Of a stretch of DNA of 32,543 bases, positions 2,594-13,861 are shown one piece after another. The notes beneath the pieces were generated by a model. The model saw only the letters and a program-made list of their open reading frames with translations. It was not told the DNA's origin and did not search any database. Numbering within the stretch: the stretch's first letter is position 1; each line of letters begins with the position of its first letter. A program made the position numbers and the translations under genes. Origin of the DNA: Clostridiales bacterium (lineage in GTDB: Bacteria; Bacillota; Clostridia; Oscillospirales; CAG-272); the NCBI GenBank assembly GCA_012837425.1, contig DURE01000008.1:1-32543 (forward strand). Reading direction: 5' to 3'.

Positions 2594-4975
2594 CTATATA
2601 ATCTTCTCAAGCTTGGCATACGATGCCATTATCTTCTTCGTCCCCATGCGGTCGAAGGCCACCTCATACAGAATATCGGCCCCCATCTTCCGGACCGCGA
2701 GCACCTCGCCCTCTCCGAAGACATTGTGCCGCACCCTGTCTCCCTCCGCAATTTTGCCGAAGTCTGCCGGCTTTTGCCGCGCCACCAACGGCCGGTTTAT
2801 TGTGATGTCGCAAGTCCCCTCCGCACGGGGCTTCTCCGAATAATAAACCCTTGTGTCCGGCCTTCTTGACCGGCCTTTTTTCATATCCGTGCGCTCGATA
2901 TGCTGCGGTGGAATTTCGTCAATAAACCTTGAGGGCTGGTTGCACCCGGTCCTGCCAAAGAGCATGCGCCGGGCGGCATGCAGTATATACAGCTTCTCCT
3001 TTGCCCTTGTCACCGCGACATAGGCCAGCCGCCTTTCCTCCTCCAGCTCGTTGTCCCCGCGCATTATCGCCTGTATTCCGGGAAAAATTTCCTCCTCCAT
3101 TCCGGCCAGAAAAACCACTGGAAACTCAAGTCCCTTAGCGCTGTGGACGGTCATCAGCACCACCGCGTCGGCACTCTCGTCGTATTTGTCGATATCCGAG
3201 ACCAGCGCAACCTCCTCAAGGTATCCGGCAAGACCTGCGTCTTCGTTCCTGGCCTCATAGTCAAGCGCGCCCGACACCAGCTCGTCTATGTGCTCCTGCC
3301 GCTCCCTGCCCTCGTCACCTGCAGCAAGCAGCATGTCCCGGTATCCGCTGGCATCAACTACCTCCCTTATCAGCTCGGAGACCCGATGTGTTCCGGCATA
3401 TTCAGACAGCCGGTTTATCAGCGCCGCGAAATCGCCGAGCTGGCGCACCGCGCGCGAGAGTTCGGCATATCTTGAGGCATTCTCGATTATATCAAACATG
3501 CCGCAGCTAAAGGCCCGCGCCAGCCGCTCAATTTCCTCGACCGTGCGCTCGCCTATCTTGCGCTTCGGCTCGTTGATTATGCGCTTGAGCCGCTCCGAGT
3601 CGTTGCGGTTTTGCAGCACATTAAGATATGCGACAATGTCGCGGATTTCTTTTCTGTCAAAAAATCTGATTGCCCCGATGGTCCTGTAAGGCAGGCCGGA
3701 CTTTGTAAATGCCTCTTCAAGCGCCCGCGACTGGGCGTTCATGCGGTAGAGCACCGCAAAATCGCGGTAACGCCGGCCGCTCAGGCGGACCAGTCGGCTT
3801 ATCGTATCAACGATGTATTTTGCCTCGTCGTTTTCACTGTCAAGCTCACACACCGAAATAAGCTCGCCGGCCGGCTTGTCGGTCCAGAGTTCTTTTTCCC
3901 GGCGGGTGCGATTGTTTGAAATTATGGCATTGGCCGCACCCAGAATGTTTCCGGCCGAGCGGTAGTTCTGCTCCAGCTTGACAACCCCGGCATCCGGATA
4001 ATGCCGGTCAAAACCGAGAATATTGGCTATAGTCGCCCCTCGGAACCGGTAAATGCTCTGGTCGTCGTCTCCGACCACCATAATATTGCGGTGTCCGCCC
4101 GAGAGCAGCTCTGTCAGTACAAACTGCGCCTCGTTGGTGTCCTGATATTCATCGACGCTCACATAAAGAAAGCGCGACTGATACCTCCGCCTCACCTCCT
4201 CGTTGCCCCGCAGGAGGTTTACGGTCCTGAAAATTATGTCGTCAAAGTCAAGCGCATTGGCCGTGGCGAGCAGGCTCTGGTACTCGCCGTATATGCGCCC
4301 TATCTGCTTTTTGCGAAAGTCGCCGCCGTCGGCAAAGTCTCCTGGCCCTATCAGCTTGTCCTTGGCGTGGCTGATTTCTTTTATCACGCTGCTTATCGGG
4401 AGCGTTTTCTCGTCAATATTGAGGCGCTTCATGGCGGCAGCCACCGCCCGCTTTGTATCCTCGGTATCGTATATCGAAAACCCGGGTAAAAGCCCCGCCG
4501 CCTCGGTATATGTGCGGAGAATTCTCAGGCAGACAGAGTGAAAGGTCCCGGCCCAGATGTCGGTCGCATACTCCTCGCCGAGCTCCGCGGCAAGCCGGCT
4601 CTTTATTTCATTTGCCGCCTTGTTGGTAAAGGTAAATGCAAGTATCCGGTAGGGCGGGCAGGGCGACTCTATAAATTCGGGCAGTATGTCGGCCAGCTGC
4701 TCCCTGGTGAGCGAGGCCGCCGCCTCAAGCTGGGATACCCGGGATACAGCGAGGTCCTCCGGGATTTTGTCGCTCATATATGCGTTCCCGTAGCGTATGA
4801 TATAGGCAATCCGGCGCACCAGCACGGTTGTTTTGCCGCTGCCGGCGCCGGCCAGAATCAGAAGCGGCCGGTTTATCGTGAAAACCGCCCGCCGCTGCTC
4901 GGGGTTCAAATCAGAATAGTATTTATCAAAAATCCGCCGCTTTGCGGCCAGATACCGTCTGCCAAGCTCGTCCAT
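2594..4975 (-). CDS. pcrA: ATP-dependent 3'-5' DNA helicase, UvrD/PcrA family
   Basis: A 793-residue superfamily 1A helicase that unwinds DNA in repair and clears RecA and stalled forks. Motifs in order: Q-motif LNPEQRRAV at residue 23, Walker A AGAGSGKTT at 42-50, motif Ia AFTFTNKAANEI near 113, GTFHSVCLRIL at 143, Walker B VDEYQDTN at 274-281, motif III GDDDQSIYRFRGA, motif IV EQNYRS, motif V VHSAKGLEFPVVF and motif VI EERRLAYVAVTRAK. The last 50 residues form the small Tudor-like domain (DRVRHNVFGEGEV) that binds RNA polymerase in PcrA. Residues about 62-107 are an insertion between Walker A and motif Ia, longer than in Bacillus PcrA. It is alone between its own promoter and terminator. 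The start ATG at 4975 has a poor ribosome binding site but fits the family N-terminus. Confidence 0.95.
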   Translation of the reverse strand: MDELGRRYLAAKRRIFDKYYSDLNPEQRRAVFTINRPLLILAGAGSGKTTVLVRRIAYIIRYGNAYMSDKIPEDLAVSRVSQLEAAASLTREQLADILPEFIESPCPPYRILAFTFTNKAANEIKSRLAAELGEEYATDIWAGTFHSVCLRILRTYTEAAGLLPGFSIYDTEDTKRAVAAAMKRLNIDEKTLPISSVIKEISHAKDKLIGPGDFADGGDFRKKQIGRIYGEYQSLLATANALDFDDIIFRTVNLLRGNEEVRRRYQSRFLYVSVDEYQDTNEAQFVLTELLSGGHRNIMVVGDDDQSIYRFRGATIANILGFDRHYPDAGVVKLEQNYRSAGNILGAANAIISNNRTRREKELWTDKPAGELISVCELDSENDEAKYIVDTISRLVRLSGRRYRDFAVLYRMNAQSRALEEAFTKSGLPYRTIGAIRFFDRKEIRDIVAYLNVLQNRNDSERLKRIINEPKRKIGERTVEEIERLARAFSCGMFDIIENASRYAELSRAVRQLGDFAALINRLSEYAGTHRVSELIREVVDASGYRDMLLAAGDEGRERQEHIDELVSGALDYEARNEDAGLAGYLEEVALVSDIDKYDESADAVVLMTVHSAKGLEFPVVFLAGMEEEIFPGIQAIMRGDNELEEERRLAYVAVTRAKEKLYILHAARRMLFGRTGCNQPSRFIDEIPPQHIERTDMKKGRSRRPDTRVYYSEKPRAEGTCDITINRPLVARQKPADFGKIAEGDRVRHNVFGEGEVLAVRKMGADILYEVAFDRMGTKKIMASYAKLEKII

Positions 4976-12120: not shown

Positions 12121-12149
12121 ATGATACTCCAAAAACACTTGTTTGTCAA
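12121..12149 (-). promoter_or_regulatory. Promoter of the 2-hydroxyacid dehydrogenase operon
   Basis: Minus-strand -35 TTGACA (12144-12149), exactly 17 bases, -10 TATCAT (12121-12126). It is divergent from the promoter at 12210-12237, with about 60 bases between the two. Confidence 0.75.
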
Positions 12150-12209: not shown

Positions 12210-12237
12210 TTGACAAAAAAATTTATTATGTTATAAT
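12210..12237 (+). promoter_or_regulatory. Promoter of the Tudor-like gene
   Basis: Perfect -35 TTGACA (12210-12215), 16-base AT-rich spacer, perfect -10 TATAAT (12232-12237). The predicted start near 12244 lies about 280 bases ahead of the ATG at 12524, which is unusually far and leaves a long transcribed leader. Confidence 0.8.
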
Positions 12238-12324
12238 ATAATTGCCGGCAGACTTGGAGCAGATCAGCCGCAGCGAAAACCAGAACCGAAGGCAGGCCGC
12301 CGGACTAAAAATAATACTATCACG

Positions 12325-12508
12325 AAGAACCGTCTTACTATAAGAAGGGCTTTTGATATTTTTGCCAGGCACGGCACTGATATTAAAGCCCTTTCTTTTA
12401 CACGCAGGGAACGGGCTGCTCAAAAAACAGAAAAGAACCGTCTTAAAACAAGAAGGGCTTTTAGTATTTTTGCCGGGCGCGGCACTGATATCGAAAGCTC
12501 TTCTTTAT
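12325..12508 (+). repeat. Two tandem 108-bp leader repeats, each able to fold into a hairpin
   Basis: The units begin at 12325 and 12433 (period 108) and share about 75 well-conserved bases: AAGAACCGTCTT, then AAGAAGGGCTTTT, then ATTTTTGCC(A/G)GGC(A/G)CGGCACTGATAT. In each copy AAGGGCTTT can pair with a downstream AAAGC(C/T)CTT. The second copy keeps the stem through a G-U pair. Both are followed by T-rich runs (TTTCTTTT, TTCTTTATT). An alternative short pairing TCTT/AAGA is also kept in both. This looks like tandem attenuator-like elements, a function I infer. One forward frame is free of stops from 12214 to 12537 but has no usable start codon, so I do not call it a gene. Confidence 0.7.
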
Positions 12509-12523
12509 TGACAAGGAGGAAAA

Positions 12524-13366
12524 ATGAACTTAATCAATAAAACCGTGCGACACAGAATTTTAGGCGAGGGCACCATAACCGACATTCAGGACCGGGTTGT
12601 GTTTATAAGGTTCGGCGAGGAACTGAAAAAATTCGCCTTTCCGGATGCATTCAGCAAGCACCTGAACCTTGAAGACAAGAAATGCAAGACCTATGTCGAC
12701 AATCTCCTCGCTGAATACAACAAGGAAGCCGAGCTTTTGCGCAAAAAGGAGCAGCAGGAGATTGAAAAACGCCGGCTCCATGCCAAGCTCCCGCTAAACG
12801 ACAATTCACAGGCCGCCTTTGGCTTCATCTACAACGACCGGCAAAAGGTACTCCAGGACTGGACTGTTACCACAGGTACATATCTGTCGGGCAGTAATTT
12901 CGGAAAACCCCGGGTTGCCTCTGATATATATCCGAACACGGCCTGCATATTGACCTGTCTTGACAAAGGAGAACCCGAAGAAAACAGATATATTTGGGGG
13001 CTGTTTATGGTGCAGGACGATTTTGTCGGCTCCGAGTGCACCGACGGAATCATTCCCGCCCACCCCGATTACCGGCTTGAGCTCTCAGATGAGCGCAAAG
13101 ACCGCTTTTTATTCTGGAGATACTTTGAGCCCCCGGTAGCTGGCAAAAAACCGAGTTGGGGTTCAAAGGAGTTCCGATATGTATCAAACTGGAAGACCGC
13201 ACACCTTTTGCTTGATATTTATTCGGTTGCACAAGAGCCTGAAAAGCAGCTGTCCCGGGATTTTTTTGAATACTTCTGCCGGCTCAACAAATTCAACAGC
13301 GAAGTATTGATAAGTCATCTGCAGAAAAAAAAGAATATAAGCGGAGGTTACTATGTATACCCTTGA
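12524..13366 (+). CDS. Uncharacterised protein with N-terminal Tudor/SH3-like domain
   Basis: A 280-residue protein without assigned function. Residues 1-45 (KTVRHRILGEGTITDIQ.RVVFIRFGE) form the small beta-barrel also seen at the C-terminus of PcrA. Residues 50-88 are highly charged and probably a coiled coil (AEYNKEAELLRKKEQQEIEKRR). Residues 90-280 are a compact mixed domain with FGFIYND, RYIWGLFMVQDDF and a Trp/Phe-rich segment. I know clostridial proteins with this N-terminus that databases mislabel malate synthase; nothing here supports that enzyme. The barrel suggests contact with RNA polymerase or nucleic acid, as inference. The start has AAGGAGG seven bases upstream. Its expression is probably controlled by the long repeated leader. 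No membrane segments or signal peptide. Confidence 0.8.
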   Translation: MNLINKTVRHRILGEGTITDIQDRVVFIRFGEELKKFAFPDAFSKHLNLEDKKCKTYVDNLLAEYNKEAELLRKKEQQEIEKRRLHAKLPLNDNSQAAFGFIYNDRQKVLQDWTVTTGTYLSGSNFGKPRVASDIYPNTACILTCLDKGEPEENRYIWGLFMVQDDFVGSECTDGIIPAHPDYRLELSDERKDRFLFWRYFEPPVAGKKPSWGSKEFRYVSNWKTAHLLLDIYSVAQEPEKQLSRDFFEYFCRLNKFNSEVLISHLQKKKNISGGYYVYP

Positions 13367-13460
13367 GGTTATGCCAGGGGACAAGGCACAAAAGGCAAAG
13401 CAACTCAGAAATACCATACCGGGCGCTGCCCTCCAAACTGATTTAAAAAATCGAGATTGA
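13353..13460 (+). CDS. Possible 35-residue small protein overlapping the Tudor-like gene
   Basis: An ATG with GCGGAGG five bases upstream overlaps the last 14 bases of the preceding gene in another frame and encodes MYTLEVMPGDKAQKAKQLRNT and 14 more residues. The product is basic and has no recognised motif. The good ribosome binding site and coupled position favour translation; the short length and the decayed sequence that follows suggest it may be the stump of a once longer gene. Confidence 0.3.
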   Translation: MYTLEVMPGDKAQKAKQLRNTIPGAALQTDLKNRD

Positions 13461-13861
13461 TCCTAAAAGCCCAAGTCCTGGAACATCAATCGGCGACCTT
13501 GACCGTAACCTATTCGTACGGGGTCACTCTCGCTTACATGCACCAAACAGGCAACAGCCCCGAGGGGCGACGGCGTGGCCAGCATTCTTATTCAGAACCC
13601 GTCCAAATCAAATCAGAGCATTGTTTGACAATTTTTATCACCCTTCTGCTTGCCGCAAGCCTTGTCACAGGCGCCTTTGCCGACGAAATCACAAACTAGG
13701 GTGGCACGACCAGCGCAGATGTCAAGGCCACCTACAAGCCGGCGGGTGAGGCGGCTATCGTTTACAGCGTTGAGGTAATCTGGGGCAGCATGGAATGCAA
13801 GGTAAAACTGAAAATAATCGCCTACCGCCCCCAAACCTATACCAGCATGAGGACAATATGA
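13457..13861 (+). pseudogene. Remnant of a secreted surface-protein gene
   Basis: Near 13615-13690 the frame encodes a signal-peptide-like stretch, CLTIFITLLLAASLVTGAFA, followed by DEITN and an in-frame TAG at 13697-13699. Beyond the stop the same frame continues with GGTTSADVKATYKPAGEAAI then VYSVEVIWGSME, a pattern I associate with short cell-surface proteins of Clostridia, then loses resemblance and ends at 13861. Upstream of the signal peptide there is no credible start or ribosome binding site, and fragments that look coding appear in other frames. I read this as a broken gene with a nonsense mutation and probable deletions. It has no functional part I can defend. Confidence 0.6.

Follow-up and report, generated by a model that had tools for sequence, protein, structure and literature searches.

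The 32,543-nucleotide stretch of DNA considered here (the window; contig DURE01000008.1 of the Clostridiales bacterium assembly GCA_012837425.1) contains a gene preceded by a long leader, in which two related units stand in tandem between a sigma-70-type promoter and the Shine-Dalgarno sequence, and followed by the remains of an L25 gene (Table 1). The initial annotation had placed a consensus promoter about 280 bases ahead of the ATG; with TTGACA at 12210, a 16-nt spacer and TATAAT at 12232-12237, the promoter agrees with the consensus at every position, and its -10 element ends 286 bases 5' of the ATG at 12524. The two 108-bp units that had been described at 12325 and 12433 are likewise real: the repeats are 74 nt long and 82% identical, lie 108 nt apart from start to start, and the first begins 87 nt past the -10 element. 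Tandem Repeats Finder did not list this repeat, nor did a simple terminator scan, which accepts loops of 3-8 only, list the hairpins. The leader is unique in its own genome, the second best of 13 matches being only 18 bases long. Two further features were seen nearby. A GC-rich pairing, CCGGC...GCCGG, spans 12245-12304 at the presumed 5' end of the transcript, and its counterpart in the congener G001 reads CCGGCAG...CTGCCGG (by eye); a second near-consensus promoter, TTGACA-17-TATCAT, lies on the minus strand at 12121-12149 and faces a divergent 2-hydroxyacid dehydrogenase gene.

Table 1. Features of the leader and of the gene behind it, in window coordinates
Feature	Position	Strand	Evidence or remark
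Sigma-70-type promoter, TTGACA-16-TATAAT	12210..12237	+	12/12 consensus matches; kept in congener G001
P0 of unit 1, putative antiterminator hairpin AAGAACCGUCU...AGAAGGGCUUU	12325..12353	+	
Unit 1 predicted terminator hairpin with U-rich tail (UUUCUUUU); AAGAAGGGCUUU shared with P0	12342..12400	+	fold z -4.73; covariation
P0 of unit 2	12433..12461	+	
Unit 2 terminator-like hairpin, U-tract interrupted in the window (UUUAUUGA)	12450..12508	+	fold z -5.17
Shine-Dalgarno sequence AAGGAGG	12513..12519	+	sequence
Gene behind the leader (predicted Tudor-like N-terminal domain, helical linker, EVE/YTH/ASCH-like C-terminal domain)	12524..13366	+	
Decayed L25 (Ctc) pseudogene, N- and C-terminal pieces with a stop	13353..13503	+	tblastn

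The unit has the layout AAGAACCGUCU-(apex)-AGAAGGGCUUUU-GGUAU-(variable stem)-AUAUGG-AAAGYCCUU-U-tail. Within its first 29 nt lies a small hairpin, P0 (ACC-G-UCU...AGA-A-GGG), made of CC/GG pairs, a G-A mismatch, UCU/AGA pairs and a variable apex, the base of which may possibly be extended by AAG/CUU pairing across an AA/G loop. The second half of the unit is a predicted intrinsic terminator that uses the same AAGAAGGGCUUUU strand as P0 and, because both hairpins need this strand, the two folds would be mutually exclusive. Much of this had been anticipated from the window alone, namely a hairpin with a T-rich run in each unit, a G-U pair that keeps the stem of the second copy, and an alternative pairing of an upstream TCTT with AAGA of the same stem. 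Both hairpins are more stable than every one of 200 dinucleotide shuffles of each unit, the G-U pair is present, and the alternative pairing, also present, extends to ACCGUCUU/AAGAAGGG with one mismatch (by eye). The U-tail of unit 1 contains one C; the interrupted tract of unit 2, which reads UUUUUAA in G001, belongs to a hairpin that ends directly 5' of the Shine-Dalgarno sequence in the window. The further statement that the copies differ more outside the stems applies to the other bases but fails for 12 bases, AAGAACCGTCTT, that are identical in both.

Covariation, which the initial annotation had proposed to look for with a covariance model, is indeed found when 13 units are aligned. In this alignment, which was fitted to the terminator structure and thus favours it, 98.3% of 240 cells of the terminator are paired (slid controls, 42-61%), and 10 cells show changes in both partners, where shuffles average 3.4 (10 being reached in 0/500). 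Four pairs are changed on both sides against a mean of 2.2 (11/500), and the covariation score of 0.298 against 0.237 exceeds all 500 shuffles; a measure counting further pair types is not above the shuffles (404/500). The two strands of the outer terminator stem behave very differently across these units: the shared 5' strand has 0/130 variant cells, whereas 20/128 cells vary in the 3' strand, mostly through G-U pairs, and the 5' strand of P0 has 2/130. Judged from these alignments, an invariant shared strand facing a varying terminator partner is the mark of a strand with two roles. Neither the P0 apices nor those of the terminator are constant in length or sequence. The P0 apex tends to stay paired: 20 distinct apices contain 42 paired steps, whereas shuffles average 17.8 (sd 3.4) and 0/5000 match the observed count (related apices, such as those of L154 and L155, being counted separately and unweighted). 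This applies to the GNAT apices (n=4; 16 paired steps against 4.0, 0/5000 shuffles) and to the L25/Tudor apices (n=15; 24 against 12.8, 0/5000), though in the latter the terminator is itself a reason for AAGA to be conserved, which confounds the test in part. Examples are AUGC-GGAA-GCAU in L154 and UUGA-UUAU-UCAA in L160. In L157 the G-A mismatch is replaced by U-G beside UCUG/CAGA, and in unit 1 of L130 the apex pairing is absent. When RNAfold was applied to the P0 segment, the modelled fold was best in 18 of 23 units; the other five (L109, L130 unit 2, L131 unit 1, L132 and L156) favoured a hairpin in which the same two segments pair in a shifted register, while the AAG/CUU base formed in one of the 23. 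An attenuator comprises two mutually exclusive, conserved hairpins of which the 3' one is an intrinsic terminator, and comparison reveals just this arrangement, the exceptions being the shifted P0s and the broken U-tracts of window unit 2 and of the GNAT unit in L131.

The unit extends well beyond the window. R1, a covariance model of the three units closest to window unit 1 but not of that unit itself, recovers unit 1 at E 7.4e-14, and the search for related units that had been suggested placed the unit ahead of genes in further genomes and in other genera. With R1 it was found ahead of operons of L25 and the gene in question, for whose product we coined the label Tudor-EVE, in L124, L126, L129, L130 (two), L131, L132 and L133 (two), and all nine of these units end in a run of at least six T. 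A second model, R2, built from 13 units, matched 9/394 genomes of the window's order at E 0.001. Eight of these, at 62 bits or more, are exactly the eight genomes in the draw with a short-type Tudor-EVE gene, and the ninth, G533, is weak. In a draw from the class, 8/391 genomes matched (G000, G1001, G982, G819, G1090, G785, G949 and G1021). Two matches, G533 (33.8 bits) and G1021 (33 bits), show no P0 pattern and were dropped as likely chance; G1021 has a Tudor-EVE gene elsewhere in its genome. Similarly, R1 gave two strong and four weak matches (28-34 bits; G135, G310, G179 and G132) over 395 genomes of the window's family, and the weak four were dropped, their contexts being unrelated by eye. 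A pattern scan of 108 family genomes matched five, the reversed-pattern control none, and the exact pattern added the GNAT form in G048, G103 and G064. Antisense matches of the same hairpins were left out of all counts. Altogether at least one whole unit is present in 19 genomes (G000, G001, G048, G064, G103, G446, G522, G557, G609, G656, G670, G745, G785, G819, G949, G982, G1001, G1090 and Oscillibacter valericigenes, L109), and L043 makes a twentieth with only the 3' half of a unit, where its contig ends. The unit-bearing group would appear to be Clostridia. Tandem pairs occur in three lineages (the window and G001, G670, and G446). In 10/20 loci 15-33 nt separate the end of the best promoter match from the unit, and there the leader is therefore little more than the switch. 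Viral contigs yielded no relative of the protein and no pattern match, and phages no DNA match and one distant protein relative.

The genes behind the unit fall into a few contexts: L25 and/or Tudor-EVE, GNAT acetyltransferases, and a PII-like/antiporter pair. The initial annotation had foreseen neither the association with L25 operons and the L25 pseudogene nor the contexts of the GNAT and PII-like kinds. The order is gene then L25 in L043, L124 and L126, and L25 then gene in L109, L129, L130, L131, L133 (where the L25 frame is cut short) and L156; in G1001 the unit is followed by L25 and Tudor-EVE, and in G982 by L25 and a sigma-70 gene. In G785 and G949 the unit forms part of the beginning of a GNAT gene; G557, G656 and G670 have a GNAT-type copy in addition to the L25/Tudor copy (GNAT identity in G048, G103, G064, G656 and G949 is by similarity to three domain-scanned proteins). 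In the GNAT genes (L154, L155, L160, L161, L168, L169, L170 and L131) the terminator hairpin overlaps the first codons: its 3' strand contains the start ATG or GTG, Val-Phe-Leu is encoded where the U-tail lies, and here translation may be coupled too. In G819 and G1090 the unit precedes a protein with a sub-threshold P-II match, in G819 followed by a Na/H exchanger. The unit seen in L157 and L159 is divergent (AAGAACCUUCUG...CAGAGGGGCUUU) and lies ahead of the gene for a small protein whose match to P-II is sub-threshold; in L159 a Na/H exchanger comes next.

The initial annotation had called the gene behind the leader Tudor-like, and for the N-terminus this agrees with the predicted fold and, weakly, with the sequence. 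In the AlphaFold2 model (39 sequences; pLDDT 89.2, pTM 0.72), residues of about 2-50 resemble the C-terminal Tudor domain of UvrD (VIA-align Z 6.6, 1.9 A over 46 residues), and residues 2-50 also CarD (Z 6.4); the structures matched are from complexes with parts of RNA polymerase or with UvrB. The modelled C-terminal domain, residues of about 91-240, resembles MJECL36 (Z 11.0, 2.6 A over 120 residues), PH1033 (Z 10.3), the Mmi1 YTH domain (8.5) and ASCH (7.0), of which we take MJECL36 and PH1033 to be EVE domains. The best Foldseek match of the window protein has E 0.045, so that none is below 0.001, and at E 0.1 neither Pfam nor NCBIfam has a family that the protein matches; its C-terminal domain has no Pfam match, and PADLOC found nothing among three proteins scanned. 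PcrA_UvrD_tudor matches weakly in 22/39 homologs (best E 0.0021), though not in the window protein. A search with a 7-sequence alignment returned 160 relatives, the best 80 of which are mostly from Bacillales, and four Priestia plasmid copies (H2-H5) are annotated as "malate synthase"; PMC7641849 treats EVE domains, and the portion consulted mentions neither L25 nor malate synthase. Among 394 genomes of the window's order, 20 match the protein at E 1e-15 or better and were sorted by match length into a short type (G000, G446, G522, G557, G609, G656, G670 and G745; incomplete in G446 and G557), a long type, about 340-360 aa, that resembles the insert-bearing forms (G664, G690, G725 and G738) and eight genomes with matches to the N-terminal domain alone. 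Paralogs consisting of this domain only adjoin CarD-like genes (CarD_TRCF_RID) in L021 (G000:C58), L022 (G001:C12) and L139.

Absence of the unit upstream of orthologous genes had been named as evidence against the attenuator. Such absence is found in Bacillales and in a few clostridial orthologues, though not in the window's order: among 40 homolog loci R2 found the unit in L109 only, and none in about 30 Bacillales nor in L050, L088, L093, L097 and L115, which are clostridial or other Bacillota loci. The Bacillales homologs (L044-L121, for example L078 at 3816-3871, and L040) have a conserved long leader of their own; a hairpin (CGUAUUCCGAAUUC...GAAUUAUGGAUACG) and a T-run are situated some 24 nt past its -10 element. 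Of 82 loci, 73 have a leader with an identified -10; a strict pattern occurs in 40 of these leaders, and 34 of the 40, folded together, gave 13 consensus pairs, three with changes on both sides. Rfam had no match to this leader in 16 loci scanned, and some Rossellomorea leaders are shorter and without such a hairpin.

Might the repeats not be an RNA element at all? The initial annotation had offered as its alternative a duplicated, decayed coding segment, and the frame on which it built, stop-free over about 108 codons in the window, is real. The sample of the genus comprises three genomes, including that of the window and the congener G001. G002, the third, has neither leader nor gene, the window protein being without a match there, and its region with the nearest transporter homolog was set aside as a counterpart locus, not being syntenic. 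In G001 the promoter, the two units and the gene (at 76% amino-acid identity) are all preserved, and because the indels in its leader are not multiples of three and break every frame, leaving stops in all three, the leader is not coding; substitutions in the aligned units moreover respect pairing, and the probability of a coding origin is negligible. It is also very improbable that the units are operators in DNA, bound as inverted repeats by a transcription factor. Each unit is indeed an inverted repeat close to a promoter, but such a site would not explain why G-U pairs are tolerated, why variation is confined to one strand of the outer stem, why U-tails follow the stem in most units, or why a second, exclusive hairpin is supported.

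Two proteins encoded behind the leader are candidates for its ligand. L25 could bind the unit and repress its own operon as a ribosomal-protein leader, in keeping with its position beside the unit or the Tudor-EVE gene in 10/13 loci of the L25/Tudor type, its presence in 5/5 other unit-bearing genomes tested, and the existence of L25 leaders in Enterobacteria (PMC7247131, from the part consulted). L25 must then be encoded in the genome. In relatives it is the second gene of the operon; in the window it is a pseudogene, to which the L25 of L043 aligns by tblastn in two pieces (E 0.014 and 5.8e-8), and PF01386 was found in 0/3 genomes of the genus, the same search matching 8/14 known genomes as a control; yet AAGAACCGTCTT, AAGAAGGGCTTT and GGCACTGATAT are unchanged in all four units of the window and G001. 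L25 is therefore no general ligand, and the unit also precedes GNAT and PII-like genes; L25 is not the signal in the window's genus and may be elsewhere, although as a general account this reading is quite improbable. Alternatively, Tudor-EVE might regulate itself, its Tudor domain docking on RNA polymerase while the EVE/YTH-like domain reads the nascent hairpin and brings about antitermination. The fold matches to UvrD-CTD and CarD, solved with parts of RNA polymerase, and to YTH domains point this way, as do the 8/8 co-occurrence of unit and short-type gene in the order draw and the paralogs beside CarD-like genes in three genomes. Five unit-bearing genomes (G982, G785, G949, G1090 and G819) nevertheless lack a Tudor-EVE gene at E 1e-5, in a search of ten genomes in which G533, whose unit match was dropped, lacked it as well, so that Tudor-EVE is no general ligand either; further, homologs in Bacillales and some Clostridia occur without the unit. 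Autoregulation is accordingly unlikely. The simplest reading is a shared trans-acting factor or metabolite as the signal, and ribosome stalling seems less likely because no upstream open reading frame with a Shine-Dalgarno sequence was seen between promoter and P0 in leaders inspected by eye.

The claim that the leader belongs to no known riboswitch class is supported within Rfam 15, which has no match to the window at the gathering threshold, two chance-level matches at E up to 10 (the better at E 0.1, ctRNA_p42d, 19.5 bits against 50) and, in 17 unit-bearing relative loci, two tRNAs only. No published description of the unit was found in the open-licence literature searched, though one may exist; the parts of PMC2965389, PMC11109978 and PMC8632094 that were consulted contain no L25 and one unrelated acetyltransferase. 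The comparisons that follow draw on portions of the cited papers. In the RAT leaders of BglG, LicT and SacY, as here, an intrinsic terminator and a short hairpin compete for a common strand and exclude each other (PMC3369936; PMC9981650). RAT, however, has two asymmetric loops (PMC3369936), whereas P0 has a 1x1 mismatch and, if its base forms, a 2x1 internal loop, and the genes behind P0 are not sugar genes. Leaders read by ANTAR proteins similarly have an antiterminator hairpin that overlaps the terminator stem (PMC3369936), but with two hairpins, loops with A1 and G4, and the second hairpin overlapping the terminator; the present unit has one P0 per terminator, with variable apices. The nearest orphan, set against the unit by description only, is Gd4v, a variant of the guanidine-IV riboswitch; both are terminator-based ON switches that precede several kinds of gene, GNAT acetyltransferases among them, and occur in Firmicutes as well as in other phyla (PMC9788692; PMC7736828; PMC11611296). 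As described, a pseudoknot connects their two hairpins, the residues in it and around it, loop nucleotides included, are conserved, and the terminator lies inside the binding structure, whereas the apices of our unit vary and its conserved residues lie in stem bases common to two exclusive hairpins. The L25 leader of Enterobacteria likewise precedes an L25 gene (PMC7247131) but comes from a different phylum; it is set apart, without sequence comparison, by the other genes controlled here and the loss of L25. The unit would work like RAT, ANTAR and terminator-type riboswitch leaders, but a defining feature of RAT, of ANTAR and, in this genus, of the L25 leader is absent.

Taken together, the leader in the window probably, at roughly 77%, consists of two transcription attenuators in tandem, both from one family that appears to be undescribed; the tandem attenuator with two exclusive folds that the initial annotation had suggested is upheld by covariation, by the invariant shared strand and by recurrence ahead of different genes. 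What comparative sequence analysis establishes is the two exclusive folds, their conservation and their recurrence ahead of L25, Tudor-EVE, GNAT and PII-like/antiporter genes. In the mechanism we propose, the first 29 nt of a unit would fold into P0 (CC(G)UCU...AGA(A)GG). If P0 is not stabilised, the downstream strand would pair with AAGAAGGGCUUUU instead, giving a long terminator stem that ends in a U-tail, and transcription would stop; if a trans-acting signal, whether protein or small molecule, holds P0, the terminator would be blocked and the gene read. The result would be an ON switch that is OFF by default, where we infer the direction, the co-transcriptional order and the existence of a ligand. 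Alone, P0 folds weakly, at -1.9 to -9.9 kcal/mol against -14.3 to -30.8 for the terminator, as would be expected if the switch stays off until something stabilises P0. In the window, default folding would end transcription at unit 1, a bound factor would let the polymerase through, and two units in series would multiply termination, although unit 2 may act on translation or be weak because its U-tract is interrupted and it adjoins the Shine-Dalgarno sequence. The leader might also be a double aptamer, as had been suggested. More tentatively, and with rather less than even odds, P0 might be an aptamer of roughly 30 nt and the unit an orphan class of riboswitch whose antiterminator doubles as the binding hairpin, controlling a shared response of L25, Tudor-EVE, GNAT acetyltransferase and PII-like/antiporter genes across Clostridia, in tandem here and with the start codon inside the terminator in GNAT genes.

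Such an orphan switch of compact design would link a ribosomal stress protein, a Tudor-like and EVE/YTH-like protein, and acetyltransferases. The leader has outlived one of the genes it served, L25, and in GNAT genes its terminator is built into the coding sequence. Knowing the ligand would show what signal these bacteria monitor and would offer a clue to the roles of the genes.
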